A stretch of DNA of 64,000 nt from Sphaerolaimus hirsutus (taxonomy: Eukaryota; Nematoda; Chromadorea; Monhysterida; Sphaerolaimidae). Positions 1 to 24,739 of the stretch are shown one piece after another (position 1 is the stretch's first letter; the number at the start of each line of letters is the position of its first letter). The DNA lies in contig OZ038452.1 in the NCBI GenBank assembly GCA_964036195.1, positions 5,884,704 to 5,948,703 on the forward strand, given 5' to 3'. Under the pieces are notes generated by a model, which saw only the letters and a program-made list of their open reading frames with translations, had not been told where the DNA came from and made no database searches. A program made the position numbers and the translations under genes.

Positions 1-66
1 TTCGTGATCGGGATGGGGATTGGGATCGGGATGGGGATTGGGATCGGGATGGGGATCGGGATAGGG
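1..66. repeat. G-rich (GGGATY) microsatellite
   Basis: Degenerate hexamer-type repeat of GGGATC, GGGATT and GGGGAT running from the window edge to about position 66. The G-rich strand has many closely spaced GGG/GGGG runs, so it could form a G-quadruplex. It lies upstream of the first recognisable exon of the + strand gene, probably inside an intron. The left edge is outside the window. Confidence 0.85.
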
Positions 67-75
67 ACTTGAACC
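65..75 (-). other. tRNA-type B-box (SINE or tRNA remnant)
   Basis: On the minus strand this reads GGTTCAAGTCC, a near-perfect RNA polymerase III B box (GGTTCRANTCC). The surrounding bases do not fold into a complete tRNA: the T stem is only partly paired and no clear A box is seen. The GGGATY microsatellite follows directly on its 3' side, as in the simple-repeat tails of tRNA-derived SINEs. A decayed SINE or tRNA pseudogene is the likeliest reading. A chance match cannot be excluded. Confidence 0.3.
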
Positions 76-240
76 CGCATCTTTCATCTTTCAAGCAGTA
101 ACTATATAGACACATTCCACGATTTGTACCGTTCTAAAATCCACCAGCGAGTCTTGCTGTATACATGAATTTGAAACACACTGTGTTTTAAAACACTGTG
201 TAATTGTCACTGCAAAACACTACTTTGAAATATCTCTCAG

Positions 241-5827: not shown

Positions 5828-5974
5828 AATGTGTTTTTTTTGGTAATGTGAAAGGGGCGTGTGCCTCTGTGCATGTTTACCCCATGTGCATGTCAGCGGT
5901 ATTCTACATGTTGACTTTCCACGATGCTCCAGGGGATTCGGTAGACTCCTCTGGAGCAATTGATAGTTCTTACA

Positions 5975-5980
5975 AATAAA
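5975..5980 (+). promoter_or_regulatory. Poly(A) signal AATAAA
   Basis: Canonical AATAAA, 147 bases after the TGA at 5827. It is the natural 3' end signal of the multi-exon gene. A hairpin with arms GCTCCAG and CTGGAGC lies just upstream (about 5928-5958), in the 3' UTR. Confidence 0.7.
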
Positions 5981-7178: not shown

Positions 7179-7182
7179 CTAG
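7179..7182. other. Target-site duplication CTAG (left)
   Basis: CTAG immediately before the 5' LTR is repeated at 24736-24739 immediately after the 3' LTR. A 4-bp duplication fits Ty3/gypsy-type integrases. Confidence 0.85.
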
Positions 7183-8016
7183 TGTAGGTAGATATATGGC
7201 TAACTAATCATGCGTAAAAACGTAACGACAATTTTGCGCAGACACTCCGACGACTCGAGAACGACCATGTGCGACCGAATGACGACCCGCGGTGCACAGG
7301 GAAGTCACAGTGAACGTGCGGTTCGCTGTGCACTGCAAATCCGCCAACGAAGCCGCAGCCCCAGGACGGTACGCCCGAATGGACACTGCTGCGGCCATGA
7401 ATTTATTAATTAATTTCTTTTCCGTTAATTACGTAATTAATTCCCGTGTGATGATAATTTTTCATTTCATGTTTCGTTAATTAAGCTAATTAGGATACCC
7501 GCACTGTTAGTTAATTAAGTGACTACTTCCGTTTTTCTTTTTTTTAAATGCATTTCCCAACATGTGCTTTCGAATGTTATAATTTTTAGGTTTTATCAAG
7601 TTACATTTTTGGTCAAAAGGGTGCAGTGTCTGGGAATGGGTTAGAAAGACTTTAATGTTTCTAGTTAAGCTAACAGGTGTTGACTCTGTTAAATGCTTAG
7701 ACGCCCCGATAGATAACATTCAGAAAATTCCCCGACCAAGTGCTTTTTACTTAGGACTAGGTAATGGGTGGAAAAGTGGCAAACGGCAATTATTGTCGGC
7801 ATGCGACTGCAAGACACATGCAGAGCACAGTTTATAGTGAAGAGCACAGTAGTGCCAATTAATTATTCCCATCACCCAGGGTGATTGGTGAACTCACAAG
7901 TGCTAGTGTTTTGTGGCGTGTGTTTAGTCCCAAAGTTCCAACCCTTACCCGGCAATGCAATAACCTTGAACAAACCCCGCAAATGAGCGTTCTTTCTGTG
8001 GCCTTGGTCGGGCGCG

Positions 8017-8026
8017 CTATAAAAAT
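8017..8026 (+). promoter_or_regulatory. LTR TATA box
   Basis: TATAAAAATA in a local GC-rich context (GGGCGCGC just upstream). It is the likely U3 promoter driving the genomic RNA, with R starting roughly 25-35 bases downstream. The 3' LTR has the same sequence at 23891-23900. Confidence 0.6.
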
Positions 8027-8468
8027 ATTTTTTCACCTAAAGGGGCGCAGGTTGATAACACGTGTCACACCACCTGCTCTAATTTGTACCGTAACCTCTG
8101 AATAGAACCCAGTTTATGACACTCACCTTTGAGATGAATTGCATTTTAATTACGTCAGTGATAACCACAGTTACTTTACGCTTGATTTAAATTACGTTTG
8201 CACCTGTTCGTTTGATTAGTTATTTTTCCCGCATTGAATTAATTTACTTGTGCCTTGTACGCTATGTTTACGGTTTTCCAGTGATTATTGAATTTGCCTT
8301 ATTAATTTGCTTATTACGGTTAATTGTTGTGTCTCTGATTTAGTATTCATTTCGCTTATGGTAGGTTTTTGGTGATTATAAAACGCGCTGATTTTACATT
8401 TTTTTACCCACTAGAGGCTATACGACTCACTTGAGCTATTGTGAAATTGACTCTGACTATATCGCTAA

Positions 8469-8474
8469 AATAAA
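8469..8474 (+). promoter_or_regulatory. LTR poly(A) signal AATAAA
   Basis: AATAAA about 445 bases after the TATA box, within R or near the R/U5 boundary. The functional copy for 3' end formation would be at 24343-24348 in the 3' LTR. Confidence 0.55.
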
Positions 8475-8619
8475 GTTCCCGTGAACCCAACTTGGTCCCC
8501 CTGAAGCATACTAACTGCTTGAATTTTAATTTGAATTTTATTAATTTCGGCTTTTCATTAATTACGGCTTTTAACAATTAATCGAAGTAAACCGCCGGCA
8601 GCAGCTAAGAAAGAGATTG

Positions 8620-8625
8620 GTAAGT
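8620..8625 (+). promoter_or_regulatory. Candidate leader splice donor (GTAAGT)
   Basis: GTAAGT in the U5 part of the 5' LTR, after the poly(A) signal and before the primer site. Retroviral leaders often carry the major splice donor in this area. It could be joined to the strong acceptor at 18390-18391 to make a helicase mRNA. Only the match to the donor consensus is seen. Confidence 0.35.
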
Positions 8626-8863
8626 TGCCGTGTCCGTCCTCAGGAACTGTCAGGACCCCAAGGGGTACTGGCGCCGTTCCTGATTTGCGTGTAAACATCC
8701 CCGTACCATAAAACCAATTATTTATTTAATTAAGCACGCAAGTGGAAGCGCAAAGGGACCGGAATTTGCAATTCTCTGCCGCGGCAAAATTCGACGAGTG
8801 GCGTATTTATGTGGTAAAAACGGAAAATAGTAAAATAGGTAAAAACGTAAAATATCTGACAAC

Positions 8864-8881
8864 TGGTAGCGTAGCGAGTGG
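8864..8881 (+). promoter_or_regulatory. Primer binding site (TGGTAGC...)
   Basis: Two bases after the LTR end the sequence begins TGGTAGCGTAGCGAGTGG. TGG is the complement of a tRNA CCA end. TGGTAGC matches the start of sites that pair with initiator Met tRNA in many eukaryotes, and the following bases diverge. The host tRNA set would be needed to name the primer. Confidence 0.6.
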
Positions 8882-8977
8882 TTTCCTAAGCAAGCCATAA
8901 AGTTTTCTGTCTGGGGCGCCTGATCAACGCCTCTACAAAAAAACGGCTTCACGGATAACGAGTCACCCCAAAGGGAA

Positions 8978-11900
8978 TTGAGATCGAGGGGGCCAGCAAG
9001 CTTACAAGGGGACACCATAGAACAAGTTTGGCACGCTGCGTTGGAGAAGCAGAAACAAGCACGAAGGCGCGCGCGACAACAGAAGGCTGGGCAAGAAGTG
9101 GACGCACAACTTGCTGCAGCTGAGAGTCAAGCAGGAGACAGTGAGTCGAACGATTCGGTTAACCCTGAAATAGAGGCGCCGGAAGCGCTAGAGGAGAGTG
9201 AAAGTCAACGCTGGTCTGGACAGACAGCTGAGGACACCCCGGTAATCAGGTTATCAACGGTTGAAGGTGCAGGGCCTGCGCCAGACAGTTTCAGTCAGTG
9301 GAAGACGCCAGCTGTACCGGCAGCGGCGCGGCAGCTAACGTCCAGCGCAGAAGCGGAAGAAGCGCCTGGGACAAGCAGACAAGCTGCAGGAAAGGAAGCA
9401 GGAAAGACAGGTAAGTGGTCTAAGCTTCGGAGGACACTGGGTTGGAGCGCGGGCAGCTCATCCATATCGCCTGGAGTGCGATCGGGTTCTGAAGTCGGTT
9501 CAGACGGATACGTTGGTGACAGCGAGCCTCTAGGGCAGCCGTCGATTCAACGTGATTACCCTGTGATTGCAGCTGAGCTTGGAGCTACTGCAGATCAATT
9601 TCCCGTGATTGAAAATACCGTAGCGGAACTGTTGGAGACAGCGACGCAGAGTGGAGACACTTCCCCGGCGCTGCAGTTAAGCCCACCGAAGAGCACTTCG
9701 ACGCCGAGAGACGTGTCAGGTAACAGTAGCCGAAATTTATCGAGCGACCAGTCGAGATCGCAGAGCGCAACTGCAAAGGCTAGACGCCAGTTAATTAAGA
9801 CTGAAAATTCAAATAATCCCCCCGTGATAGTTATTAGCAGCCCCGCAAGCAGAATGACAAATAACGGCGCGAACCAGACGGCGGCTCCGGCGCTGGAAGA
9901 CAGGTACGCAAAGGTCACTAATGCGGACTTAATTTACCAAGCTACCATAATGGATCTGGACCCGGTGCAAACAACGCCAACCTGTGCACAATGGACACCT
10001 AAAAAGGCATGTGCAGCTGCGAAGAAATGGGCAAACATGATGAGTCAGGCGAGACCGGTTGGTGCTTTCTCACAGAATGGTGGTGAACCAGGGGACTTGC
10101 GTATGGTGACACTAATTAAAATTGCTATGAATTTATGGGGAAGTGACCCAGCCGCCGAGGTACCTAGGGTGGAACATTTTTTGCAGGAATTCGAAGCGCA
10201 CCACAGCGTACATAGCGACGATATAGTTGACCTGACGACTGCGTACCAACAGCACAATCAAGCCGTACAAAATCAGAATGCGACGCTGGGAGGAAATTCA
10301 CCGGCTAGTGGCCAGCAGCCGATAGTGCTGACCAATGGTCAAGCAGCGCCCTTACAGTCATCAACGGCACCAGCGGCGCCCCCGTCGGCAGCTGGAACGA
10401 ACCAGGTGAGAACTGTTACGCAGCGACGCGCTCGATCCCGTTCGCCAGCATCCTCCAGGAGCTCGTCAGCTACATCTGAAGTGGCGCGGCCCACGGACCC
10501 GGGACAAAATTGGCAATTAGAGCAAAGTAATGCGGCAGTCATCACAGCCCTAGCACAGCAATGTGGATATTTTCGCGGCAAGCCAAATGAGGGTTTCAGG
10601 GACTGGAGAAGGAGCTGGGACACGGTATGTGATGCGCTGCGCATAAAGTTACAGGAGCGGAAGCCGCTGGTGAAATTGTTTCTGAAGGGCAGTGCCAGAG
10701 CCATTTTCAACACGCGGTACAGAGAATTGCGCGACCTGAACTACAAGGACATGATGCAGGCACTGGAAAAGTTCTATGAAAATCCGAATGACAAACATCA
10801 TGCACAGAGAGAGATTTTTGAGACGCGACAGGGCGCAGATGAGTCGGTACTGGAATGGGCGGTACGTTTGGAAAAGTTGATAAAACGCGCCTATCCAGGC
10901 ATGGGTCATGAAAAACGAGGTGACACATGCATGATAAAATTTCATGGAGGACTGAGAAATGAAATTCGGCGCAATGTACCTGTCACGGCGTCTATCACTT
11001 GGAAGGAGATGGTTGACAACGCACGCGCACAAGAGAGCTTTCTGGAAGCAGAACAGAGCCAGAATAAGGGAGAAAAATCCAAACAGGATGTGGTTGCCAG
11101 CGCTACAGACAAGGTAATGGACAGGTTGATGGCGCTAAACATGCCCGCCATGGCTGGACTGCCGTCCCAGGCCGACAAGACGTTAGAAACAATGGAACAG
11201 AAAATGACTGAGAGTGTTGCCAAATTCGACTCTGTGCACCAAGAGATAGCGAAGAAATTAGCGCAGCTGGGCGCGTTGGAAGGTAAACTTTTGGGATTGA
11301 ATAGGGACCCCCCTAAATTGCCCCCACGAAAATTTGACAAAGGATGTTGGGAATGTGGCTCTGAAGAGCATATCAGATATGAGTGCCCCAAACTAACCCC
11401 AGAACAAAGGGAACAGTATTTCAAAAGGAGCCGCGGCGGCGGAGCATCCAGAGGAAATGGACGTGGGCGCGGCGGAGGACAACGTGGTGGCTATCAGGGA
11501 AATAATCAAGCCCAAGCGATGCAGCCAGGTATGGTGCCCATGCAATACGCATATCCGCAGTGGCAACCAGCGCAGCCGATGCCTGTACAACCAGCGCAGA
11601 CGGTACAGAGGGCTGGCGATATGAACATGCAACCGCAAATGATGGCTTATCAAACGCCGCCAGCTAACTGGATGGCTATGGGACCGGATGGGCGCATGCA
11701 ACAATATAACATGCAACCGGTACAGGTAAGTAACCCACACGTAGAGTCGCTGAACCCCACGCGAGTGTCCAGTACGACTGGAATGACCATGCATGTGCGC
11801 GAAGATGATCGCTGCATGATGATACGTCCCGTTAATAAATTAATCCCTGTGATGCAAGGCCTGGAATTAGAGGATGAGGAACCTGACAAACTGGTCCCAG

Positions 11901-14900
11901 AGTCACCCGAAGAGCAGCAGCGCACTACTGGAATGCATGTGCTCGCGCAGGAGCGGGAATTCTGGATCAAACCATGGGCATACATGCGAACTGAAAAAGG
12001 TTACCTGTTTCGAACTACCTGGCTGGCCTTTCTACGCAGGATTGGAATGCATGATTTGAGAGAAACGGACTGTACGTTGTGGCCTAATTGCCCTGCAGAC
12101 GACCACTCGGACACGCTGACTGAGGTGCCCTTGGATGTGCTCATGAACATCAGCCTGGACCCGTTTTTGTACGCCACGCCGGCCGCCCTGCCGCCACGTA
12201 CTGGCTCCAGCAACCAGGTAGACAGGTATATGGGTTTTCTGTCTACTGAGGAAGGGGTGCGCCCCGCGCCGCGCGCATATTCAGAACCCCCCTACATGCC
12301 TCAGGTCGCACAGTCGCTGTTTTTCGTATTGGCAGTTGGGTTAATTATAATGGGATTAGCCTTTTTGCCGGGCGCGGGCGCGACTACCATGCCCTCGTTT
12401 CCACTGCTCTGCAGCGATTTGACAGATCACTACGATTTATACACGTACCCCCCTCTACCCAATTGCACGGCTATTGTTGACACTACGGCGTCATTAGAAC
12501 GGCCACGAAAATTGACACTGACAATCTACAAGCGAAATATGGTAGAATATCGTGCGGCAGCACACAGGTGTGTGGCCTCTACCCGAACGGCAAAGACGTA
12601 TCAGAACTTCTGGGGCGACGTCACGCTGGAAAAGTTTGATTCTAACCCCCGATCTGTGGGCGCCGCCGAGTGCGAAGGCATGATTAAATATCACAAGTGC
12701 AACAATGGGCCCATGACCCCTGTGAGTGATTTGGACAACGCATGGGACACCCAGTATCCCACCAATGTTAGCTACTCAGGACATGGATTATACTGTTGCA
12801 AATGGGTGAGCGAAACGACGCCACACTGTGGGCTGTTTCGAGGGGAAGTACGAATGAGATATGGAGCCAACACCATGCAAAGCACGCTGGGTGAGGTTAG
12901 CAAGTGCAATTATGAAATGGGTGCATGCACGCTAGAAGACGGCAGCCAATTAACATGGAAACCGAACCCGAAGGCGGAATGCCCTTATGAAAAATGGCGT
13001 GAAATGCATGGACGCATTAGACAGGACATCTGGCTAGCCGATGATCATACACTATCACTGTCCTTCAGAGCACATGAAGAGGTTGAATCATGCGGCATTA
13101 AATTATGGAAATCGGACCAGGATATTGTAGTGGCGCCATTTGAGAAGGCAGTGATTCGAAGCGTCAGACAAAAACGAGCGCAAGGTCGACCCACGCTGGG
13201 AATAGTGAGCGCAGGCCAATTAGCAGCCAGCATGCAGGCGGTATACGAAACAGCAGAACAAACCATGCGCGCGCAGGCCGTAGCCACCTGCAAGAATGTG
13301 CAACACTTCCAAGAATTTGTGCGCCTGGCTATGAGCGAACACGCAACTACGACAGCCAGATGGTACATGAATGATAACGAAATAATTGCCAAACCCGCGC
13401 CGGACGGATTTCTGGTTCACAAATGTTTTGCGGTAAAAACATACGAGATCATGAAAGAGAAGAAGTCTCCAGAATGCTACGAAACAGTACCTGTGCAAGT
13501 TAGCGTACACGGGCAGAATGTGACGCTGCACATGAATAGGTTGACAAACATTTTGCATTTTCAAGCGATCCCGGGCTCATGCACCAATGCGCACAATCGT
13601 GTGGTAATGTTAAATGGACAATGGTACAAATATCTACCGGAAGTCGGCGGCCTGGAACATTTGCCTATGTATAACACCCACAGTTTTCCGCAGAAATGGC
13701 AGCAGGAAAAGGTCAGGGATGTGCATCATCAGATTTTTGCCGCCACGACTATGTACAACTTGTCAGAATTATTGCCGACGACCACCCTGAATGACGTATG
13801 GCATGCATATTCAATCGTGCGGCAAATTACGCAGGGGGCGGAGCCGAGAGTGGAATCACACATGCAAAGACATCGAACCTTGGCAAAATCGGTATTAGCG
13901 CTGGGATGGTGGGATTTTGACACCTGGCGCACCTGGCTACAAGTATGGATCTATCTGATATGTGCACTGGTCACCATGCAGTATTTACTAGCCGCGCTCA
14001 TGGCTGCAGCGCCGGAAATGGCCGTGACTTTGGTGAACAGGGCAAAGGAAAAAATCAAAAGGCGACCAAAGACAGAAGAAAAGTCCAATATCATTGTCGA
14101 ATTGGCTGAGGACCGCCCTAGCGAACAGGTAAAGGTAAGAACGGTAATTAACCCGTGCGTGGGAATGCCAAGTGGCATGCCCGCACTCACGGGCGCGCGT
14201 CGTTTTCCCGCTATACAATACAGTATCAACAGAAAATGCGATCTGGAAGAAGAATCGGTGTGCATGATCACCTTCTCGACGGAAGAAAGAGACAACATCC
14301 ATCAAGTAGCCAATCGACGTGAAGAGATTGTGCATGTGTACTACAGCCCATCCATTACCATAACCATTGATGGGAGAGAATATCGAAGATGTCTACTGGA
14401 CACAGGCGCCATGCGTTCATTATGCAACAGAGACGTGCTGATGCGACACAAGGAAAAGGCCACTAAGCATGATGAAGTTTCACCTATTGGAGCCCTTAGG
14501 TGTGCAGCAGACTCGAAACTTTTGGTATTGGGACAAATGGAAGTACCGGTAACCATGGGAAACCACACCTTCGGGATTGTGTTTCAGGCAGTGAACGGAT
14601 TAGCTGGTGAAATTCTAATTGGTGCAGATGTCTTACGGCACATGGTAGTGGACCTACCTGCAAGGGAATTACGAATCCCTACGGCTAATGCGATCATTCC
14701 CTTTGATAACCCAGACCCGGAAGTGCAGCAGCGCAGAATTTACGCTATTGTGAATGAGAAAATAGAAATTCTGGCTAGACATGAAGCGCTAGTGACCGCA
14801 AAATTATCTGCCCCCATGGATGAAAGGTTATTTACGGTCATGGGATTGGATACGGTAGGTGAACGCTGTGGCGTTATGGCTGCTTCAGCGGCCTATGAAA

Positions 14901-15577
14901 CTAGTGCCCCTGTGTTTCAGGTGAGATGTGCAAATGTACGAAACCAGCCCGTAGTGCTACAGGTAGGACAGCGCATTGCAGTGGTCGAACCAGTGGACTG
15001 CGTGCTGAAGGTGAAACCTGGAGACCCTCCCGCTGAATGGGTGAAGCAGTGCTATGACAGAGATGTGTGTCGACAGGTTCAAGCGACTGAACCTCCCCCC
15101 AAAGTAGCCGAAGACAAATTAGGACCTCCACTGCAAGTTGCATGTCCAGATGGACACGTGATGGAATTTACCGTGCCAGAAACATTGACGGACGAACGCA
15201 GAGAGGAACTGAAAAAGGTGATTTTGCAGTACAAAGAAGCTTTTGCCCGACACAAGTATGACATCGGCTACAGCGAATTAGTGGACTACCGGTTGCAATT
15301 GGTGGACAAAAAGCCAATTGCTTGCAGAATGTACCGGTTGAGTCTGGATGATCAGCAATACTTAGAAAATCATTTGAGATGCCTCATCGAGCACGACATC
15401 GTGGAACCCAGTACGAGCCCGTATTGTGCCCCCACGCTGGTGGTATCCAAACCGGATGGATCAAAGCGGATGGTAATTGATTACAGACGCCTGAACGCTG
15501 TTTTGCACGCTCCCCAATTCCCATTACCCCGCTTAGATGAAACAGTCGAATCTTTATGTAGCTGCAAGTATTTTTAG
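8978..15577 (+). CDS. Gag / envelope-like glycoprotein / protease / N-terminal RT polyprotein
   Basis: Open frame of 2,199 codons from TTG 8978; it is actually open from 8924, and the first in-frame ATG is at 9854 (residue 293). Residues 1-292 are Ser/Ala/Glu-rich. About 512-700 is a retrotransposon Gag capsid-like domain. C790-C793-H798-C803 is a CX2CX4HX4C zinc knuckle, followed by an RGG-rich and a Pro/Gln/Met-rich stretch. Residues 1113-1135 form a hydrophobic, signal-peptide-like segment ending in an Ala/Gly-rich stretch. The Cys-rich region after it has sequons at N1162, N1263, N1514 and N1594 and a furin-like RQKR at 1397-1400. A membrane anchor lies at about 1657-1677, followed by a basic tail. 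An aspartic protease follows with DTGA at 1808 and an ILIGAD motif. RT starts near 2060 and is cut by TAG 15575-15577. The glycoprotein module between Gag and protease is highly unusual. How it is released or separately expressed is unknown. Confidence 0.9.
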   Translation: MRSRGPASLQGDTIEQVWHAALEKQKQARRRARQQKAGQEVDAQLAAAESQAGDSESNDSVNPEIEAPEALEESESQRWSGQTAEDTPVIRLSTVEGAGPAPDSFSQWKTPAVPAAARQLTSSAEAEEAPGTSRQAAGKEAGKTGKWSKLRRTLGWSAGSSSISPGVRSGSEVGSDGYVGDSEPLGQPSIQRDYPVIAAELGATADQFPVIENTVAELLETATQSGDTSPALQLSPPKSTSTPRDVSGNSSRNLSSDQSRSQSATAKARRQLIKTENSNNPPVIVISSPASRMTNNGANQTAAPALEDRYAKVTNADLIYQATIMDLDPVQTTPTCAQWTPKKACAAAKKWANMMSQARPVGAFSQNGGEPGDLRMVTLIKIAMNLWGSDPAAEVPRVEHFLQEFEAHHSVHSDDIVDLTTAYQQHNQAVQNQNATLGGNSPASGQQPIVLTNGQAAPLQSSTAPAAPPSAAGTNQVRTVTQRRARSRSPASSRSSSATSEVARPTDPGQNWQLEQSNAAVITALAQQCGYFRGKPNEGFRDWRRSWDTVCDALRIKLQERKPLVKLFLKGSARAIFNTRYRELRDLNYKDMMQALEKFYENPNDKHHAQREIFETRQGADESVLEWAVRLEKLIKRAYPGMGHEKRGDTCMIKFHGGLRNEIRRNVPVTASITWKEMVDNARAQESFLEAEQSQNKGEKSKQDVVASATDKVMDRLMALNMPAMAGLPSQADKTLETMEQKMTESVAKFDSVHQEIAKKLAQLGALEGKLLGLNRDPPKLPPRKFDKGCWECGSEEHIRYECPKLTPEQREQYFKRSRGGGASRGNGRGRGGGQRGGYQGNNQAQAMQPGMVPMQYAYPQWQPAQPMPVQPAQTVQRAGDMNMQPQMMAYQTPPANWMAMGPDGRMQQYNMQPVQVSNPHVESLNPTRVSSTTGMTMHVREDDRCMMIRPVNKLIPVMQGLELEDEEPDKLVPESPEEQQRTTGMHVLAQEREFWIKPWAYMRTEKGYLFRTTWLAFLRRIGMHDLRETDCTLWPNCPADDHSDTLTEVPLDVLMNISLDPFLYATPAALPPRTGSSNQVDRYMGFLSTEEGVRPAPRAYSEPPYMPQVAQSLFFVLAVGLIIMGLAFLPGAGATTMPSFPLLCSDLTDHYDLYTYPPLPNCTAIVDTTASLERPRKLTLTIYKRNMVEYRAAAHRCVASTRTAKTYQNFWGDVTLEKFDSNPRSVGAAECEGMIKYHKCNNGPMTPVSDLDNAWDTQYPTNVSYSGHGLYCCKWVSETTPHCGLFRGEVRMRYGANTMQSTLGEVSKCNYEMGACTLEDGSQLTWKPNPKAECPYEKWREMHGRIRQDIWLADDHTLSLSFRAHEEVESCGIKLWKSDQDIVVAPFEKAVIRSVRQKRAQGRPTLGIVSAGQLAASMQAVYETAEQTMRAQAVATCKNVQHFQEFVRLAMSEHATTTARWYMNDNEIIAKPAPDGFLVHKCFAVKTYEIMKEKKSPECYETVPVQVSVHGQNVTLHMNRLTNILHFQAIPGSCTNAHNRVVMLNGQWYKYLPEVGGLEHLPMYNTHSFPQKWQQEKVRDVHHQIFAATTMYNLSELLPTTTLNDVWHAYSIVRQITQGAEPRVESHMQRHRTLAKSVLALGWWDFDTWRTWLQVWIYLICALVTMQYLLAALMAAAPEMAVTLVNRAKEKIKRRPKTEEKSNIIVELAEDRPSEQVKVRTVINPCVGMPSGMPALTGARRFPAIQYSINRKCDLEEESVCMITFSTEERDNIHQVANRREEIVHVYYSPSITITIDGREYRRCLLDTGAMRSLCNRDVLMRHKEKATKHDEVSPIGALRCAADSKLLVLGQMEVPVTMGNHTFGIVFQAVNGLAGEILIGADVLRHMVVDLPARELRIPTANAIIPFDNPDPEVQQRRIYAIVNEKIEILARHEALVTAKLSAPMDERLFTVMGLDTVGERCGVMAASAAYETSAPVFQVRCANVRNQPVVLQVGQRIAVVEPVDCVLKVKPGDPPAEWVKQCYDRDVCRQVQATEPPPKVAEDKLGPPLQVACPDGHVMEFTVPETLTDERREELKKVILQYKEAFARHKYDIGYSELVDYRLQLVDKKPIACRMYRLSLDDQQYLENHLRCLIEHDIVEPSTSPYCAPTLVVSKPDGSKRMVIDYRRLNAVLHAPQFPLPRLDETVESLCSCKYF
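9411..9416 (+). promoter_or_regulatory. Candidate internal splice donor (CAG|GTAAGT)
   Basis: A full consensus donor, CAG|GTAAGT, lies inside the ATG-less part of the first ORF. A second copy of the same 9-mer is at 11723-11731, just downstream of the RGG region and upstream of the envelope-like module. Either might serve a subgenomic mRNA. No transcript evidence is available here. Confidence 0.25.
11726..11731 (+). promoter_or_regulatory. Candidate splice donor between Gag and envelope-like module
   Basis: GTAAGT preceded by CAG. Possible acceptors before the signal-like segment are ATTCAG ending near 12284 and CCTCAG ending at 12304. Splicing here could express the glycoprotein separately from Gag-Pol. 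This is inference from consensus matches only. Confidence 0.25.
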
Positions 15578-18284
15578 CAGTGCCGACATAAACCAAGCTT
15601 TCTATAACATTGCTTTGCATCCAGATGATCGACACATCACGTCATTCAGAAATGTTTTTGGACAATTTCAACTGAAACGTTTACCCATGGGATTAAAATG
15701 CTCACCTAGTTTAGCACAGCGCTGTTTTGAATTAGCTATGGCCGGTTTAATACATCGAAATGTATTATTATACATCGATGATTTACTGATTTATAGTGCA
15801 ACCTGGGAAACACATTTATATGACATAGGACAGGTGTTAGAAAGACTAATTAGGAATAATTTCAAAATTAGTCCAAAAAAGTGTTTTTTCGCACGCGTCA
15901 CAGCTGTACGCTTTCTAGGATTTATGATTGGCCGTGACGGCGTGTGCGTACCAGATGATAAACGGCACATAATTCAGGACTGGCCGGTACCCACTACCGT
16001 AAAAGAGGTAAAAGGATTCCTGGGAGCTATCGGGTTTTTCAGACGCATGATTCACAGATGCGCAGAGCTAGCAGTACCCTTGTCAAATCTCACGCGTACG
16101 GGACCAAGAGAGAATTACAATAGCGACACCCCGGTGGATTTGACATCGAAACCCAAGGCACTGGAAGCTTTCCATAAGCTCAAGGAAGCATTGTTAGGAA
16201 GCCCATGTCTGCAATTTCCCGATCCTAAACGTATGTTTATAATTATCACGGACGCCTCTAAAATTGCTGTTGCAGGCGTGCTAGCACAACGAGCAGAGGA
16301 CGAGAAAATACTACATGCATGTGCCTTTTACAGCCGGAAGTTAGGTGCAACCCAAAGCAAATGGCCAGCGATTTCCCTGGAAGCGTGTGCAATCTACGAA
16401 AGCATACGTAACTGGCATTGTTATCTGGCGGGACGGCCCTTTGAAGTCTGGACTGACGCCAAGAGTATTTCATGGGTAAAGAATCCTAATTTAGAGACTA
16501 CCCCGCACGCCATGCTGCACAAGTTCGCTTTAGCAATTACGCCGTACCAAATCACGTTCAAGCATTTGCGGGGAAAAAGCAACGAATTAGCAGATGCATT
16601 ATCCAGAAGACAAGACGCACCAGTGGTATTCGACGAGAAAAAGGACCTGGATGAGGCTTTTGAGCAGTTCGCACAAGTTACGTGCCGTGAAATTGCTATC
16701 CCGCACGATAAGCAGGTTACGGTAGCTGCGGCAAGCAGGACAGCGTACCAGCCAATCAGCGTAAACGAGGAGGCGGAGTTACTGCGACCAATCAGCGACC
16801 GGACGCGCGGGCGAAAAGAGGCGGAGTCACCCGGGCTGCGAGAGCGGCAGCGGAATGCGGAAGCGCCTGGAACCGGAACAATGGCTGGTGGTTCAGGAGC
16901 CGGAAATGAAGTTGTTCCGGGTTTGACGAGTGCAACTAAGCGCAGTACAATCATGGCACTACCTCCAATGACTTCGGTTGACAAATTGAAGCGACTACAA
17001 GCAGAAGAACCATACATAGCCACAACTATAGAAGTGTGTCGCGCAGATAATTTTTACAGCGCCGCGCCGTATTTTATTGACCAATACGGTTTGCTACGTC
17101 GCCAGGCGGGAACGTCCCAAATACCAGGTATACAATTATACGACCCCGTATGTATTCCGTCGGAATTAGTTCCATTCGTGTTAGAATTAGCTCACAATCA
17201 CCCTACGGCGGGCCATTTAGGAATAATAAAAACATTTGAAAGATTACAGGAATTCGCGTGGTTTCCAGGAATGCGGCCAGAAAGTGCGCGCTGGGTTGCC
17301 ACCTGCCCTTCGTGCAACGCCAAGAAAGGTCTCAGAGCGGCAATGCGAACTCAAATGGTGTGCCGCCAGGTAGCCAAAAGGCCAGGTGATGTGATAGCGG
17401 TAGACGCAATAGGACCTTTACTAACCACGAAACGCAGAAACCGACATGTGTTAGTATTTGTTGATCAGTGCACACGTTTTGGAATTGCTGTGCCCGTTCC
17501 CGACATAAAACAAGACACAGTATCATTTGCATTTCTGTTGCACATTTTGCCTATATTTAGTGTGCCGGCCATTATACTCAGTGATAACGCCCCTAGCTTT
17601 ACCGAGGGCACTTTTGCCAAGCTTCTACAATATTTGAACGCGACCCAACATACATCATTTGCGTACACCCCCAAGAGCAACGGAATGGTGGAACGTAGGA
17701 ATGGTGTTCTGATGGAAATAGTATCACACTACGTAAATCGTACACATGACGATTGGGACATACATTTAGGCGCCGCTGTACACGCGTACAATACATCGAA
17801 ACACCCTTCCTTGCAAACCACCCCCTATGCGTTGCTATTTGGCAAGCCTGCTGCGTCCATGTGGGAGCGAATGATCGAGCCTCCCCCTGACAACGAGGCA
17901 TTGCCCTCATTGCCGCATAAGCGCGCTCTTATAAATGAATTAGGCGCGCGTCTGACCACAGCACGCGAAGCAGCGCATACCGCTTTAGCAAAGGCGCAGC
18001 AAAAAGAGCAATTTTACGCCAATCGCCGTGCGCGCCGATTGAATGTGCAACGCGGGCAAGCGGTACGCGTATACACGCCGCGTATTACGCAGTTGACGGG
18101 CCCTAGTAAGAAATTCGCGCCTCGCTTTATCGGCCCGTATGAGTGCATTGATTATGCCCACCCATTAGTGACTTTATTCAACAATATTAATAAGAAAATT
18201 TATGTAGTTCATGCGGATCGTTGCAAGGCAACCAGTGAATATTTAATTCCCCCTTCTTACAGTGAATTATACGGCGACGACTAA
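15576..18284 (+). CDS. Pol continuation: RT, RNase H, integrase
   Basis: Continues RT in the +1 frame relative to the first ORF. The break falls in a T5 run at 15571-15575, and the frame itself is open from 15537. Numbering from 15576: the RT catalytic YIDD starts at residue 66. RNase H acidic residues are D226, E269 and D294. An HHCC zinc domain starts near 540 (HNHPTAGH ... CPSC). Integrase catalytic residues are D610, D670 and E706, giving D-59-D-35-E spacing, and a GPY/F module (FIGPYE) lies near the C terminus. The order RT-RH-IN is that of Ty3/gypsy and retroviruses. All catalytic residues are present, so the module looks functional except for the frame break. Roles: copying the element RNA into DNA, degrading the RNA strand, and inserting the DNA. 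The stop at 18282-18284 leaves 219 bases before the helicase ORF. Confidence 0.95.
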   Translation, partial: SSADINQAFYNIALHPDDRHITSFRNVFGQFQLKRLPMGLKCSPSLAQRCFELAMAGLIHRNVLLYIDDLLIYSATWETHLYDIGQVLERLIRNNFKISPKKCFFARVTAVRFLGFMIGRDGVCVPDDKRHIIQDWPVPTTVKEVKGFLGAIGFFRRMIHRCAELAVPLSNLTRTGPRENYNSDTPVDLTSKPKALEAFHKLKEALLGSPCLQFPDPKRMFIIITDASKIAVAGVLAQRAEDEKILHACAFYSRKLGATQSKWPAISLEACAIYESIRNWHCYLAGRPFEVWTDAKSISWVKNPNLETTPHAMLHKFALAITPYQITFKHLRGKSNELADALSRRQDAPVVFDEKKDLDEAFEQFAQVTCREIAIPHDKQVTVAAASRTAYQPISVNEEAELLRPISDRTRGRKEAESPGLRERQRNAEAPGTGTMAGGSGAGNEVVPGLTSATKRSTIMALPPMTSVDKLKRLQAEEPYIATTIEVCRADNFYSAAPYFIDQYGLLRRQAGTSQIPGIQLYDPVCIPSELVPFVLELAHNHPTAGHLGIIKTFERLQEFAWFPGMRPESARWVATCPSCNAKKGLRAAMRTQMVCRQVAKRPGDVIAVDAIGPLLTTKRRNRHVLVFVDQCTRFGIAVPVPDIKQDTVSFAFLLHILPIFSVPAIILSDNAPSFTEGTFAKLLQYLNATQHTSFAYTPKSNGMVERRNGVLMEIVSHYVNRTHDDWDIHLGAAVHAYNTSKHPSLQTTPYALLFGKPAASMWERMIEPPPDNEALPSLPHKRALINELGARLTTAREAAHTALAKAQQKEQFYANRRARRLNVQRGQAVRVYTPRITQLTGPSKKFAPRFIGPYECIDYAHPLVTLFNNINKKIYVVHADRCKATSEYLIPPSYSELYGDD

Positions 18285-18391
18285 AAAATTGATTAATTAG
18301 CCGTTACGATCATCGCCGTCGCGTCAAACAACACGAAACCAGGTACAACAGGTATGAAGTGTGTGTGAAAGTGTCTGTGTTTTTTTTTTAG
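18285..18391 (+). promoter_or_regulatory. Intergenic leader with strong candidate splice acceptor
   Basis: Between pol and the helicase ORF. TGTG, nine Ts and AG end at 18391, a textbook 3' splice acceptor. From 18392 to the helicase ATG at 18504 there is no ATG. This fits a spliced subgenomic mRNA in which the helicase is the first ORF, analogous to retroviral env mRNA. No promoter is evident. Confidence 0.45.
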
Positions 18392-18395
18392 GAAG

Positions 18396-18437
18396 CTCGT
18401 GCACCCCTTTTGCCCACGGGCAACTGGACCGCACGAG
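18396..18437 (+). other. Potential RNA hairpin upstream of helicase ATG
   Basis: Outer arms CTCGTGC (18396-18402) and GCACGAG (18431-18437) enclose an inner perfect stem TTGCCC / GGGCAA (18410-18415, 18418-18423) with a 2-base loop, separated by two 7-base internal strands. It lies directly after the candidate splice acceptor, so it would be in the 5' leader of the helicase mRNA. Confidence 0.5.
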
Positions 18438-18503
18438 TTCTTGTTACTTTCCCCGTTCATAAAACTTCGCAATTAATTATTTTATCACATTATTATAATT
18501 ATA

Positions 18504-21500
18504 ATGGCTTCGGCCTCTCGCAAACGCCCATTTGAAGGTGCAGACGCCCCGCCCATTAAATCCAAGGAGACAAATACACATGGTGCCTGCGGCGGCGGAA
18601 CCATTCCCCCGCGACAACTTTACCGCGCGCAGCAGATGCAAAATGGACCGGAAATCTACCCCAGCAGAGGGAAATTCGAAGGTTGGGTAGATAGGGTGTA
18701 TATTGACTCGGGCTCCGACGGGCATGTTGAGTATCAGTGCCATGTGAGAATTTCTGAGCAGACGATGGCGATACTCAGCGAAAACGAGCAGTGGGTGAAT
18801 GCGGATGAAGCTTATCCGTATTTTTATTATTCGAATAAGCGGGCCAAGGCGGCTAGGGACAAACGGACCACCCAGCTGGTGGATTTGTGCGCGAGAATTC
18901 AGAAACAACACCCCTCGATGTTCCTGCCCCTAGTGCGCCACGGGATGCGTTTCTCGGCGACCGCAATCGCACAAAAAATAGAAAATCCCCGGTACTGGGA
19001 GTTTACCGGTGTCGCGATATGGGGTAATCAGACAAAGTGCCCCTTAAACGTTGCCGCCCCCGTGGTCGTGAGTACGCAGGGCACGCGGCGCGTCACTCAA
19101 GCGGCACGTACATTGACGCGCGGCGACACTTCCGGCTACCAGCCCTACACGAGCGACTGGAAAACAGCGCGGCTGCGAGCGGCCTTCACGCCGTCGAATT
19201 ACAAAAATCTGGAACCGCTGGGCGCGGCGGAGCGAGGTGATGCCGGGCCGGAAAAGCTGGTCATTTTGCACAGAGAATATGTGAGTGACAGCAGAGTGGA
19301 AAATTTGAGTGCGGGACAGTTGGGGCTGGCCCACGTCGAGTATCACGACTTGAATGATCTGGACGTGTTTGGCGACGAATTCTACGGCCATGCGTACGGG
19401 CTGCAGGTCGCCACGGCCGAGGATATCAGCACATCGGGCATCCAGCCAGACACAGAGAACCGAGACAACATGGACTCGTTTCTCAGGTATAAATTGGGCA
19501 TTTTAGCAGCGGCTCACTGCTATAACGAGTCATTTTTGCGATTTCGGGCGAAACGCGCAACGGATGTGTGCGCACATGTGTCCTGGGAGCACACGTCGCA
19601 GGGCACTGCATGCGATATTATGGTGCGCCGCCCGGACCCAGAAGAGTTGCAAGCTGACACTTTCGAAGGACCAGAAGAGCAGCGCGTGCGTTTGCTGGAG
19701 CAGGTGAACACGCAGACACAGATGTTGAACCAGGCGACGCCCATGTCGGTGTTGAGCTTGGTGCTGGCCAGACCGGACGAAGACAAACCAGCGGCGGGCA
19801 GCCCCAATCTATCAGTTAGAATTACCAGCGTGGAATCAGAGCCAACCACTACAATGCTGCGTGCGAAGTTGGACATGGCGGCGTCGCAATCAGCACTGCC
19901 CCGAACCCTGGAGAGTGGAAGATACATGGTGCGCGGCTCGAACGACTCGCCCAATTACGACCGAACCATGCGATCACTGCAAGCCGCCCTGAACAAAGCG
20001 CCGGTCGGCTGGGTGCCAAAAGTGGTCCAGGGGTCAAAAGTACTCACCCTGGAGGCGCAAATCCAATTAGCTGTGATATTGAATTTGCGTCTGCTGGATG
20101 ACGAAACTGACTGGGCGCTCATTAGCCGCGAGGCTAATGAGTTGTACGAATCATTGTTCAGAGGAAAAAACGAACAAATGATTCAGGCCAAATTAGGTGA
20201 GTTTTTGCCGCAGCAGGGGCAGGTAGAAGTTTTAGGAGCTGTGATCACAGCCGTGCGAATGCGCAAACCCCTTTTGATTATGTGTGACTCGCCTTTCGGG
20301 TCCGGGAAGACGACCACACAAAATCAACTGGCGTATGTGTGTTCACGCGGCTATAATTATTATAACTCGAGACCCAGGGTGCGCGCGGGCTCCGACTTGC
20401 CATCGGACAAGCAGCCGAACGCCAAATACCATTCGACGCTCATCACGTGCACGGTCAACTCGGCGGCCGACGAAGGCGCGCGCAGGGCCCTGACCAACCT
20501 GAATAAATTAGGGCAGCGGGATATTTTTGGGGCTTTAGAAGTCTTATTGCGGGAGCGCGCGAAATGGACCGCCATGGCTGATACGCCATTTTCTGAAATG
20601 CAAAAACTGGAGGGTTTTGAAGAATTTTTGAAATTAAGAGCGGCATTTCCGGTGCGCGTTTTGAGTCCCATGTGGGAAACTGACCCCACTTATAACACAA
20701 CCCCCGCGACCCAATTGCCAACCCTGCACACCCTAGCACAGCGAACCGGCCACAACATCGTCCGCCTCAGCCCCGAATGGACGGCAGCGCTGGAAAAGTA
20801 CGACGGCGCCAAGAAGGACTACGAACTGGTGGACGAAATCATCAACAACTGCACGGACGACGCCGTCATACGCGCGCAGCTGACCGAACAGGTGCCCTTT
20901 CTCACCGCCGACGATGGAGACGAGCAGCCATTCGATGACTTCGAGGCAGGCGTGGCGGGCGCCCGGGCTGGTGAGGCTAGTTTAGCTGATCAGGGATTTT
21001 GGGGTAAGGTGCTGCGTAGGGCGCTGTCTAAATATGTCAGGGCTACGGTCAGGCTGCACCGGGTGTTCTTGGAGGTGGTGCAGCCCGGTCAAATCCATGT
21101 CACTTTAGACTCCGCCCACGACGCCCGTATAAAAAGTGTGACTGCGTGTGCGGTAATTATTGACGAAGCGTCTTTGGCGTCTGACGCTGCAGTAATTAGC
21201 GTGGCTCAGGCGGCTCAGCTCCCAGTGAACGGCATGCTACTTCTATTTGGAGACAGTAAACAATTGACGCGTATGATTCGCGTGCAAGACTGGGTGGAGC
21301 CTGTCCTGAAACCCGACCCCACCCTCATTGATAGGCTCACACAATACCAACTATGTCCCGTGGTTCACTTGGAAACAGTGTTCCGCGGGCATCGCCAGCT
21401 CATTCAGGCCAACTCGGTGGCGGCGTACAATGGACTGCTACGCGCCTACAACGACACTGCAGCGCACGGCGCCACCATGTTGCCCGCGCCTGGCGACTTC

Positions 21501-22475
21501 GAGGATGGCGTCATGCTGTCATCGACGCTGGTGCACCAGGGCTGCGAATCGAAAGAAGGCATGTCCATTATCAACAAAAAGGAGCTGCGCATCATCTTGC
21601 ACCTGTACGACTACCTCGTGGCCACAGTGAAAGAAGATCCCACCCTGCCCTGGGCAGATCTTACCGATCCCGCTAGTTTGCTAATTGTCTGTTTTTATGC
21701 GGCGCAGGCGCGCGCCCTAATCAGTCGACTAGTAGCCCATACAGAGCACGACGCGGCTTACTGGGCCACCCGCGTGATCACTGCCGACAAGGCACAGGCC
21801 CGTGAAGCGGAAGTGGTCATCGTTTCCTGCGTGCGCGGCAGCCCGCCTACCGACTCCGCCCAGCTGGATGCCGATCCCAAGAAGGCGTACGGTAGAGTTG
21901 GATTTGTAGCGGAGTTGCCCCGGGGAAACGTAGCCACCTCCCGCGCCAAATGTGTGCGCATCGTGGTGGCCAACGCCGAGACCATGTTGTGGTCAACCTT
22001 TTTCCACCGGTTTCTGACGGTCGAGCACAAAGCCGACCGGATTTACTCTTACGAGTCAGGCCAAATTTGGGGAAACGTGTTGGGATTTTGGCCACCGGAA
22101 TGGCGCCCGCGGGCCGACTTGAAAGAACTAGTCGGACCGGACAGATACCCGGCCCTCGAAGAAGAACTGCAGGCGGAATGTTTGTCTGACATTGAAACCG
22201 CCACCGCGGGCTCTGACTCCTCCGCAGACGCGCGGGAGGAGGGTGTGCCGGTGTTGGAGGAAGTGGTGCCCGTTGTCGAACCAGTTTACCAACCTAATGA
22301 AGAATATTCCCCCATTAGCAACGACATGGCGGCCATGGCATTGCAGAACGTAGCCGAGCCCCCCTCGCCGCCGCCCGAGCACCACGATGCGGTCGAGGCC
22401 ATCCCACTGCCACCAGAGGAAGCTCCAGCGCAACAGGTAGAACACCACATGGAAAATGGTAATTGTGAAAATTGA
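18504..22475 (+). CDS. Upf1-like superfamily 1 RNA/DNA helicase, retrotransposon-borne
   Basis: 1,323 residues from ATG 18504. The C-terminal half carries the SF1 helicase motifs in order. Walker A is GSGKTT (599-604). Walker B is DEAS (887-890). Motif III is GDSKQ (916-920), the motif IV region is FRGH (960), motif V is TADKAQAREAE (1093-1103), and motif VI is NVATSRAK (1142-1149). Motifs V and VI closely resemble the Upf1/SMUBP2/Sen1 pattern (TVDxxQGxE, NVALTRAR). In motif V the usual Gly after Gln is Ala. Residues 1-560 resemble nothing I recognise, and no Upf1 CH zinc domain is visible. The last 80 or so residues are acidic and Pro-rich. The ORF lies inside the LTRs, in the usual place of env, so it moves with the element. 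ATP-driven unwinding of nucleic acid follows from the family. A role in replicating or protecting the long element RNA is inference. Confidence 0.9.
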   Translation: MASASRKRPFEGADAPPIKSKETNTHGACGGGTIPPRQLYRAQQMQNGPEIYPSRGKFEGWVDRVYIDSGSDGHVEYQCHVRISEQTMAILSENEQWVNADEAYPYFYYSNKRAKAARDKRTTQLVDLCARIQKQHPSMFLPLVRHGMRFSATAIAQKIENPRYWEFTGVAIWGNQTKCPLNVAAPVVVSTQGTRRVTQAARTLTRGDTSGYQPYTSDWKTARLRAAFTPSNYKNLEPLGAAERGDAGPEKLVILHREYVSDSRVENLSAGQLGLAHVEYHDLNDLDVFGDEFYGHAYGLQVATAEDISTSGIQPDTENRDNMDSFLRYKLGILAAAHCYNESFLRFRAKRATDVCAHVSWEHTSQGTACDIMVRRPDPEELQADTFEGPEEQRVRLLEQVNTQTQMLNQATPMSVLSLVLARPDEDKPAAGSPNLSVRITSVESEPTTTMLRAKLDMAASQSALPRTLESGRYMVRGSNDSPNYDRTMRSLQAALNKAPVGWVPKVVQGSKVLTLEAQIQLAVILNLRLLDDETDWALISREANELYESLFRGKNEQMIQAKLGEFLPQQGQVEVLGAVITAVRMRKPLLIMCDSPFGSGKTTTQNQLAYVCSRGYNYYNSRPRVRAGSDLPSDKQPNAKYHSTLITCTVNSAADEGARRALTNLNKLGQRDIFGALEVLLRERAKWTAMADTPFSEMQKLEGFEEFLKLRAAFPVRVLSPMWETDPTYNTTPATQLPTLHTLAQRTGHNIVRLSPEWTAALEKYDGAKKDYELVDEIINNCTDDAVIRAQLTEQVPFLTADDGDEQPFDDFEAGVAGARAGEASLADQGFWGKVLRRALSKYVRATVRLHRVFLEVVQPGQIHVTLDSAHDARIKSVTACAVIIDEASLASDAAVISVAQAAQLPVNGMLLLFGDSKQLTRMIRVQDWVEPVLKPDPTLIDRLTQYQLCPVVHLETVFRGHRQLIQANSVAAYNGLLRAYNDTAAHGATMLPAPGDFEDGVMLSSTLVHQGCESKEGMSIINKKELRIILHLYDYLVATVKEDPTLPWADLTDPASLLIVCFYAAQARALISRLVAHTEHDAAYWATRVITADKAQAREAEVVIVSCVRGSPPTDSAQLDADPKKAYGRVGFVAELPRGNVATSRAKCVRIVVANAETMLWSTFFHRFLTVEHKADRIYSYESGQIWGNVLGFWPPEWRPRADLKELVGPDRYPALEEELQAECLSDIETATAGSDSSADAREEGVPVLEEVVPVVEPVYQPNEEYSPISNDMAAMALQNVAEPPSPPPEHHDAVEAIPLPPEEAPAQQVEHHMENGNCEN

Positions 22476-23056
22476 TACGAAACAATTTTTTGCCTAAGTC
22501 AATTATAAAAATTTTTAAGATGTAATAATTTATGCACAACTTTTGTCACCAGGAGAAACAGACAACTCTGTAACAAAAAATAATCAGCAAACAAAAAACA
22601 TACTTGTTAATATTCCATGAAAACAATTAGAAAATCTTGTCGACGATCAATTTTCACACGCACGGACTGCGACATGTCGGTCGAGCAGGTAACTTGAATG
22701 TTGATTCCAAACTGCCCATCCAACAGTGGCACGATGCTGTGAAATAATACAGATTAGTAGATTAATTAGTTTCCAAAATCAAAAAAAAAAGAAAAAACTT
22801 TTTCTCACATCGAGCCCTGAGCGGGAACCAAAATTTCGAAGTTTCGAGCACAAAAAGCCGGCACGGCAGAAAGCTGATGCCATAATTCAAATGAAGACGA
22901 GCCATATTTGCACCCCCAGGGCATGTGACTGCCACAGCCGTCCACCGAAAAATGCAGAGAAGGCATGATTTTTGAATAATCAAAAAACGGCGCAAAACAC
23001 TTTTTCTGAACATGTCGTTTTTAGCCCGGAGGTAAAAAATTAATGGCTGGTGGGAT
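22476..23056 (+). other. Noncoding region before the 3' LTR
   Basis: No convincing ORF. The stretch is AT-rich with a poly-A run near 22785. Immediately before the 3' LTR, purine-richer segments (GGAGGTAAAAAA near 23029 and GGCTGGTGGGA just before the LTR) are weak candidates for the polypurine tract. Neither is a clean purine run. Confidence 0.5.
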
Positions 23057-24735
23057 TGTAGGTAGATATATGGCTAACTAATCATGCGTAAAAACGTAAC
23101 GACAATTTTGCGCAGACACTCCGACGACTCGAGAACGACCATGTGCGACCGAATGACGACCCGCGGTGCACAGGGAAGTCACAGTGAACGTGCGGTTCGC
23201 TGTGCACTGCAAATCCGCCAACGAAGCCGCAGCCCCAGGACGGTACGCCCGAATGGACACTGCTGCGGCCATGAATTTATTAATTAATTTCTTTTCCGTT
23301 AATTACGTAATTAATTCCCGTGTGATGATAATTTTTCATTTCATGTTTCGTTAATTAAGCTAATTAGGATACCCGCACTGTTAGTTAATTAAGTGACTAC
23401 TTCCGTTTTTCTTTTTTTTAAATGCATTTCCCAACATGTGCTTTCGAATGTTATAATTTTTAGGTTTTATCAAGTTACATTTTTGGTCAAAAGGGTGCAG
23501 TGTCTGGGAATGGGTTAGAAAGACTTTAATGTTTCTAGTTAAGCTAACAGGTGTTGACTCTGTTAAATGCTTAGACGCCCCGATAGATAACATTCAGAAA
23601 ATTCCCCGACCAAGTGCTTTTTACTTAGGACTAGGTAATGGGTGGAAAAGTGGCAAACGGCAATTATTGTCGGCATGCGACTGCAAGACACATGCAGAGC
23701 ACAGTTTATAGTGAAGAGCACAGTAGTGCCAATTAATTATTCCCATCACCCAGGGTGATTGGTGAACTCACAAGTGCTAGTGTTTTGTGGCGTGTGTTTA
23801 GTCCCAAAGTTCCAACCCTTACCCGGCAATGCAATAACCTTGAACAAACCCCGCAAATGAGCGTTCTTTCTGTGGCCTTGGTCGGGCGCGCTATAAAAAT
23901 ATTTTTTCACCTAAAGGGGCGCAGGTCGATAACACGTGTCACACCACCTGCTCTAATTTGTACCGTAACCTCTGAATAGAACCCAGTTTATGACACTCAC
24001 CTTTGAGATGAATTGCATTTTAATTACGTCAGTGATAACCACAGTTACTTTACGCTTGATTTAAATTACGTTTGCACCTGTTCGTTTGATTAGTTATTTT
24101 TCCCGCATTGAATTAATTTACTTGTGCCTCGTACGCTATGTTTACGGTTTTCCAGTGATCATTGAATTTGCCTTATTAATTCGCTTATTACGGTTAATTG
24201 TTGTGTCTCTGATTTAGTATTCATTTCGCTTATGGTAGGTTTTTGGTGATTATAAAACGCGCTGATTTTACATTTTTTTACCCACTAGAGGCTATACGAC
24301 TCACTTGAGCTATTGTGAAATTGACTCTGACTATATCGCTAAAATAAAGTTCCCGTGAACCCAACTTGGTCCCCCTGAAGCATACTAACTGCTTGAATTT
24401 TAATTTGAATTTTATTAATTTCGGCTTTTCATTAATTACGGCTTTTAACAATTAATCGAAGTAAACCGCCGGCAGCAGCTAAGAAAGAGATTGGTAAGTT
24501 GCCGTGTCCGTCCTCAGGAACTGTCAGGACCCCAAGGGGTACTGGCGCCGTTCCTGATTTGCGTGTAAACATCCCCGTACCATAAAACCAATTATTTATT
24601 TAATTAAGCACGCAAGTGGAAGCGCAAAGGGACCGGAATTTGCAATTCTCTGCCGCGGCAAAATTCGACGAGTGGCGTATTTATGTGGTAAAAACGGAAA
24701 ATAGTAAAATAGGTAAAAACGTAAAATATCTGACA
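23057..24735 (+). repeat. 3' long terminal repeat
   Basis: 1,679 bp, offset exactly 15,874 from the 5' LTR with no indels. The four differences are C here against T in the 5' copy, at 23927, 24130, 24160 and 24182. Three of the four form CpG in this copy. Confidence 0.95.
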
Positions 24736-24739
24736 CTAG
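24736..24739. other. Target-site duplication CTAG (right)
   Basis: Pairs with 7179-7182. The pre-insertion sequence would have run from the inverted-repeat region directly into the satellite array, which starts 11 bases further on. Confidence 0.85.

Follow-up and report, generated by a model that had tools for sequence, protein, structure and literature searches.

What would a retrotransposon do with a helicase of its own? The question is raised by a 64,000-nucleotide stretch of the genome of the nematode Sphaerolaimus hirsutus (assembly GCA_964036195.1, contig OZ038452.1, positions 5,884,704 to 5,948,703 of the forward strand; hereafter the window), in which an earlier sequence-only reading described a long terminal repeat (LTR) retrotransposon with a Upf1-like superfamily 1 (SF1) helicase as its third open reading frame (ORF). 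The LTRs, a CTAG target-site duplication (TSD), the AAA_12 domain and the helicase motifs bear this description out. Taking the evidence as a whole, we consider it reasonably likely that a young, mobile Ty3/gypsy family captured an SF1B helicase and has kept it as a selected accessory gene.

The helicase ORF is placed between the integrase (rve) domain and the 3' LTR, is separate from pol, and comprises the following features.

18504..22475, plus strand: helicase ORF, ATG to TGA, 1323 amino acids
20211..21950, plus strand: SF1 helicase core, motifs Q to VI, from a motif alignment
21321..21977, plus strand: AAA_12 domain, Pfam

The intact 1323 codons, the full set of SF1 motifs and the position were thus as first described. 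The motifs start at residues 570 (Q), 596 (I), 646 (Ia), 883 (II), 912 (III), 956 (IV), 1093 (V) and 1140 (VI), with names given in part from an alignment with UPF1. A chance ORF was ruled out: no stop-free run exceeded 313 codons when the same DNA was shuffled by base 300 times. The profile search proposed earlier succeeded in part: Pfam AAA_12 matched at E 8e-25 (88 bits, cut-off 27), and AAA_11 stayed below its cut-off (19.1 bits against 27). The NCBIfam profile of IGHMBP2-family helicases matched at E 1.7e-13 and 49.9 bits, far under its whole-protein cut-off of 348.9. Among solved structures, the closest relative by sequence was a "5'-3' RNA helicase-like protein" (8ftm, E 6.1e-6), which we take to be Sen1, a point on which the structure table is silent, followed by UPF1 (E 0.075). 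By motifs I to VI and the AAA_12 domain, the predicted protein is a member of the Upf1/Sen1/IGHMBP2 group (SF1B). "Upf1-like" therefore holds at the level of this group and not beyond it, as 8ftm scores above UPF1 and a UPF1-type N-terminal Cys/His-rich zinc domain was not found, the whole protein containing three non-overlapping [CH]xx[CH] patterns. Residues 1-530 had no match in Pfam (E up to 5) or among PDB structures (E up to 10). Structure predictions without an alignment reached a mean pLDDT of 32.9 and 36.4. Scans of viral contigs and one scan of genome contigs returned no relatives, and tblastn returned 89 plasmid records and one phage, each below 60% identity and over about one-fifth of the query.

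Is the gene a feature of the family or of this one copy? We searched the genome with the helicase (348,482,957 bp in 762 contigs, where the window is C3:5884704-5948703) and scored the best 35 of 614 first-look candidates, ranked by helicase protein score. Each of the 35 spans residues 1-1323 with 99-100% identity; 32 are free of internal stops, and the other three have a single TGA at residue 1321. Copies differ from one another at up to 132 nucleotides, yet at no more than 18 residues. Variants found in at least two copies comprise 171 synonymous, 28 nonsynonymous and one stop change, and variants found in a single copy comprise 162, 55 and none, respectively. With 1.97 nonsynonymous changes per synonymous change (N/S) expected from the same mutation spectrum, the observed ratio amounts to 0.08 of the expectation for shared and 0.17 for single-copy variants, the outcome of the comparison across copies that had been suggested from the sequence. 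Motifs I, Ia, III and VI are invariant in all 35 copies, motif II in 34, motifs Q and IV in 33 and motif V in 31. A one-off capture is ruled out by the full-length ORF in every scored copy together with the low N/S. We are highly confident that the element keeps the helicase as a gene under selection and does not just carry it as a passenger.

The element forms one unit of 17,553 bp (window positions 7183-24735, plus strand), in agreement with the 17.5 kb first given, and has an internal region of 14.2 kb. Its ends are as follows.

7179..7182, no strand: left TSD CTAG, read from the flank
7183..8861, plus strand: 5' LTR, TG...CA, with TATA-like hexamers at 7578, 8018 and 8377 and AATAAA at 8469
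8862..8881, plus strand: primer-binding-site (PBS) region, ACTGGTAGCGTAGCGAGTGG
23057..24735, plus strand: 3' LTR, from the comparison of the LTR pair
24736..24739, no strand: right TSD CTAG, read from the flank

The PBS region ACTGGTAGCGTAGCGAGTGG presumably resembles initiator Met tRNA. Rfam and tRNA scans had no matches. Both LTRs are 1679 bp long, end in TG...CA and are 99.76% identical; the four differing sites all fall within 256 bases, each with T in the 5' and C in the 3' copy. Domains follow the order gag, env, protease (PR), reverse transcriptase (RT), RNase H (RH), integrase (IN), helicase. TG...CA LTRs with a short TSD, the order PR-RT-RH-IN and Ty3 as the nearest solved relative are the features expected of Ty3/gypsy elements. 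A nested insertion of the helicase into such an element was ruled out: the longest direct repeat in the helicase flanks is 10 nt and was matched in 12.5% of 200 shuffles. Directly 3' of the element starts a long satellite array (24751-60000) with units of 327 and 614 bp.

Both LTR pieces were examined for 20 of the 34 other helicase-bearing copies. A matching 4-bp TSD is present in 14 of these 20, a one-base mismatch in one and a larger mismatch in two; in the remaining three the TSD is unreadable, the piece being cut, shifted or partly matching. The LTR pairs of 19 copies are 99.585-100% identical over 1298-1688 bp, nine of them without any difference over the compared length, and for copy L002 the comparison covers only 11 bp. 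LTRs of other copies diverge from those of the window by up to ~7.6%, and since the two LTRs within a copy are 99.6-100% alike, subfamilies exist and the sampled members inserted recently. The family is young, recently mobile, multicopy and retrovirus-like, and its copies have inserted as units that include the helicase. Two helicase copies, L016 and L017 (G000:C6:7577975 and 7593852), are spaced 15,877 bp apart, and the LTR-to-LTR period in the window is 15,874 bp; perhaps they are a tandem pair with a shared LTR, L016 having no matching TSD.

How could a gene so far downstream be expressed? Four splice-like sites bear on this.

9408..9416, plus strand: donor-like CAG|GTAAGT in the leader, exon ending at 9410, unchanged in all 21 copies compared (the window and 20 others)
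11723..11731, plus strand: donor-like CAG|GTAAGT at the gag/env border, position 11725, exact in 18 of 21 copies
14132..14140, plus strand: donor-like AAG|GTAAGA at the env/protease border, position 14134, as read in the window copy
18377..18392, plus strand: acceptor-like TTTTTTTTTTAG|G, first exon base 18392

By approximate scoring tables, none of 60 simulated sequences had two donors as strong as the pair at 9410 and 11725, and four of the 60 had three at a lower threshold. The acceptor at 18392 has the top score (7.5) among 937 plus-strand AG sites, is kept in all eight copies compared, the window included, and is separated from the helicase start by a stretch with no ATG. The helicase is probably translated from an mRNA in which the acceptor at 18392 has been joined to the leader donor at 9410. 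As an alternative to this long splice, a 40-base intron would result if the same acceptor were used with a weaker donor at 18351. Splicing from 11725 to 18392 would end Gag with 47 added codons (stop at 18533), a possible route to Gag alone.

As to its source, GC content at fourfold degenerate sites is 0.70-0.72 in the helicase, 0.44-0.60 in pieces of gag-env-pol and 0.82 in seven exons of an upstream host gene. In codon usage, the correlation with the host exons is r 0.77 for the helicase and 0.26 for gag-env-pol (bootstrap range of the difference, 0.26-0.65). The helicase ORF is intronless, and short introns were read by eye in the neighboring host gene. Host-like codon usage and fourfold GC point to capture of a host-type gene in the form of an intronless copy, and the helicase is probably a host-type Upf1/Sen1-like gene taken up as cDNA. 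The host gene itself lies within positions 1-6000 and is GC-rich at third codon positions, and the three plus-strand frames of this upstream stretch had no Pfam match.

Several points weigh against this overall interpretation. Ranking the best 35 of 614 candidates by protein score favors intact copies and a low N/S, and because copies were found through the helicase, elements without it stay hidden. The refuting condition named in the sequence-only reading, that other copies lack the ORF or have it disabled, was not borne out among the scored copies, which are essentially intact, with this sampling as the limit of that result. The codon comparison comprises one host gene with exon borders drawn by eye, and codon usage of the helicase still correlates with that of gag-env-pol at 0.43. 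Splicing and expression of the helicase are predictions. One minus-strand site outscores the acceptor at 18392 (8.0 against 7.5), others score slightly below it (7.3 and 7.1), and one of nine presumed host acceptors lies above it (7.7), so that it is the position of this acceptor that is outstanding and not its score. Moreover, the leader, if translated, would read on from the donor at 9410 to a stop at 18460, 5' of the helicase ATG, so that the helicase would depend on leaky scanning or reinitiation.

Does the helicase stand in for an envelope gene (env)? The sequence-only reading placed it in the slot where env would be expected, which requires correction: an Env-like glycoprotein lies within ORF1, between gag and protease, and hence no env was given up in the 3' slot to make room. 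The parts of ORF1 are as follows.

8924..15577, plus strand: ORF1, encoding an N-terminal extension, Gag, the Env-like glycoprotein, protease and the N-terminal part of RT, with a UAG stop at 15575-15577
8924..9853, plus strand: ATG-free leader, open in the ORF1 frame
10670..10909, plus strand: Retrotrans_gag domain, Pfam
11342..11392, plus strand: CCHC zinc knuckle, Pfam, below cut-off
12293..14014, plus strand: Env-like glycoprotein, ORF1 residues 1106-1679, in frame between gag and protease
12293-12391, plus strand: signal-peptide-like hydrophobic stretch of the Env-like part, hydropathy only
12869-13645, plus strand: fusion-protein profile match in the Env-like part, Pfam Monjiviricetes_fusion
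13166-13177, plus strand: RQKR in the Env-like part, ORF1 residue 1397
13934-14014, plus strand: transmembrane-like hydrophobic stretch of the Env-like part, hydropathy only
14357..14629, plus strand: aspartic protease with LLDTGA, Pfam, below cut-off

The Env-like part matches Pfam Monjiviricetes_fusion at E 6.3e-8 (31.5 bits, cut-off 27), and ORF1 residues 1101-1740 contain four N-glycosylation sequons. That this stretch is an intron was ruled out, the best acceptor-like site within 300 bases 3' of it scoring just 2.2. Upstream of Gag, the first ATG after the PBS (9854) is preceded by 992 bases without one, where base shuffling expects 14.5, and the 900 bases upstream of the gag ATG (649 in one short piece) contain none in 18 of 21 copies and one in the other three. 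Leader variation over the 21 copies comprises 55 synonymous and 22 nonsynonymous changes in the ORF1 frame, with 53 of 77 at third positions. As the frame is open and varies like codons, translation of the leader probably begins at a non-AUG codon, the leader forming the start of the Gag precursor.

RT is divided between ORF1 and ORF2, and the two are joined by a candidate recoding site.

15537..18284, plus strand: ORF2, encoding the remainder of RT, RNase H and integrase (H2C2, rve)
15569..15578, plus strand: recoding site UAU-UUU-UAG-C, TATTTTTAGC, +1 shift within RT
17376-17672, plus strand: integrase rve domain, Pfam

Compared with solved structures, ORF2 is nearest to Ty3 (E 4.7e-53). The ten bases TATTTTTAGC are invariant in all 21 copies. 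Variation 5' of them is 20 synonymous to three nonsynonymous changes in the ORF1 frame, and 3' of them 26 to none in the ORF2 frame. Reading onward from UUU in the +1 frame gives what we take to be RT sequence typical of gypsy elements. A broken RT in the window copy was ruled out, as all 21 copies have the frame change and coding constraint passes from one frame to the other at this point. Frameshifting by +1 at a stop codon has precedents in Ty elements and antizyme, and TATTTTTAGC is best read as a programmed +1 frameshift at a stop codon (UUU-UAG) in an unusual position inside RT. A stimulatory RNA structure was sought in the 122 bases 3' of the shift site, where none is stable (z +1.09).

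What, then, might the helicase do? Both functional ideas of the sequence-only reading, a helicase serving a large genome and interference with RNA surveillance, would be roles that we infer. Translation of the genomic RNA would stop at 15577, or at 18284 after the shift, ~8.8 or 6.1 kb 5' of the poly(A) signal of the 3' LTR (24343, by its offset in the 5' LTR). UPF1 is drawn to long stretches 3' of a stop codon. Early termination together with strong unused donors means that nuclear retention and nonsense-mediated decay of this RNA are to be expected. We tentatively propose that the helicase acts on the genomic RNA of the element itself, by remodeling it, shielding it or aiding its export, packaging or reverse transcription. 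The target would be the unspliced RNA of ~16 kb; a helicase resident on it would remodel its protein coat, would occupy sites otherwise used by host UPF1- or MOV10-type helicases, and would aid export, packaging or reverse transcription. A more specific version, slightly more doubtful, makes the helicase a dedicated guardian of the genomic RNA: produced from spliced mRNA, it would cover and remodel the long unspliced transcript, keep host UPF1/MOV10-type factors away from it and bring it to export and packaging. We infer that a resident SF1B helicase, remodeling or competing, would be the most economical role.

Other roles are conceivable on the same observations. If the helicase instead opposed small-RNA silencing more than RNA decay, by unwinding double-stranded RNA or displacing Argonaute, there would be a parallel in SF1 helicases encoded by insect transposons, which are reported to give weak silencing suppression in a plant system (PMC6338049). 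The insect helicases derive from viruses and represent another type, and we regard such a role as unlikely. A helicase that unwinds a long structured template for RT, as the replicase helicases of large RNA viruses do, would suit an element of this length with conserved catalytic motifs. However, RTs displace strands and clear RNA by RNase H unaided, and this helicase has its own ORF and is not fused to pol. Burro elements, giant gypsy-like LTR elements of planarians, exceed 30 kb, and no such helicase is mentioned for them in the available text (PMC6431247). We therefore think a copying role rather more improbable still.

The two remaining alternatives concern how the gene arrived. A cellular cDNA trapped between LTRs and merely riding along would still have host-like codon usage, and the capture may be fairly recent, but a passenger would not be expected to be full length in every one of the 35 scored copies, to differ between copies at no more than 18 residues among up to 132 nucleotide differences, or to be preceded by an acceptor-like site. 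Finding copies through the helicase weakens the copy evidence and does not remove it, and we judge a mere passenger very unlikely. Capture from a virga-like or nidovirus-like RNA virus would fit the SF1 fold and an element that also has a mononegavirus-type glycoprotein. Against this, Viral_helicase1 matched at E 0.056 only, compared with 8e-25 for AAA_12, all eight solved structures matched at E 10 or below are of cellular proteins, and the codon usage is host-like; a viral source is hardly credible. The preferred reading remains capture of a host-type helicase that was then retained under selection.

Upf1-, Sen1- and MOV10-type helicases are normally host factors that act on retroelement RNA. 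A recently active element with its own helicase, under apparent purifying selection, amounts to a natural experiment in gene gain, one that bears on how such helicases help or hinder retroelement RNA, and with many near-identical young copies, RNA, protein and selection are directly measurable. The element also widens the range of genes captured in the 3' slot and adds another Burro-type in-frame env, together with a conserved +1 recoding site within RT.

In comparison with known systems, our literature search recognized no description, in the parts of the publications available, of a Ty3/gypsy element with a Upf1/Sen1-type helicase. Retroelements with an SF1 helicase have been described before, though these are other elements and the helicases are virus-derived: the insect TRAS/Jockey long interspersed elements (LINEs) and Ty1/copia fusions share with the present element an SF1 helicase, which there is Virga/tobamovirus-like and sits in LINEs or copia fusions, with gypsy unmentioned in the available text (PMC5563155). 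Burro elements are similar in their gypsy-like order, in-frame env, large size and additional captured domains. Burro (GYPSM1) env, in frame between gag and pol and with mononegavirus fusion-protein hits, was called the first case of its kind (PMC6431247). The internal region of Burro reaches 25 kb, against 14.2 kb here, and the Burro-type apoptosis/ubiquitin domains (BIR, BCL2, MATH) and dUTPase had no Pfam match in the element proteins scanned. The separate 3' helicase ORF is a further difference, as the available Burro text uses the word helicase three times, for other elements (PMC6431247). Anakin, a mosquito BEL/Pao element, likewise captured a glycoprotein from a mononegavirus-type source, a chuvirus, and its available description mentions no helicase (PMC7642597). 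Errantiviruses have a separate env 3' of pol, whereas here the 3' ORF is the helicase and env lies in ORF1. LTR elements of bdelloid rotifers also have a captured enzyme as ORF3 between pol and the 3' LTR, but there it is a DEDDy exonuclease, a GDSL esterase or env, "helicase" occurring in the available text only in a reference title (PMC5408684). Cer1 of Caenorhabditis elegans is, like the present element, a Gypsy/Ty3 element with a non-env 3' ORF, whose expression from spliced mRNA is predicted here. It differs in that CERV exons are common with gag, in an RNA of ~8.4 kb, and in that a helicase is unmentioned in the available text (PMC10309623). The Cer1 protein CERV, a 3' ORF product made from spliced mRNA, is required for export of the unspliced element RNA (PMC10309623), and this precedent indicates that a 3' ORF can serve RNA export.

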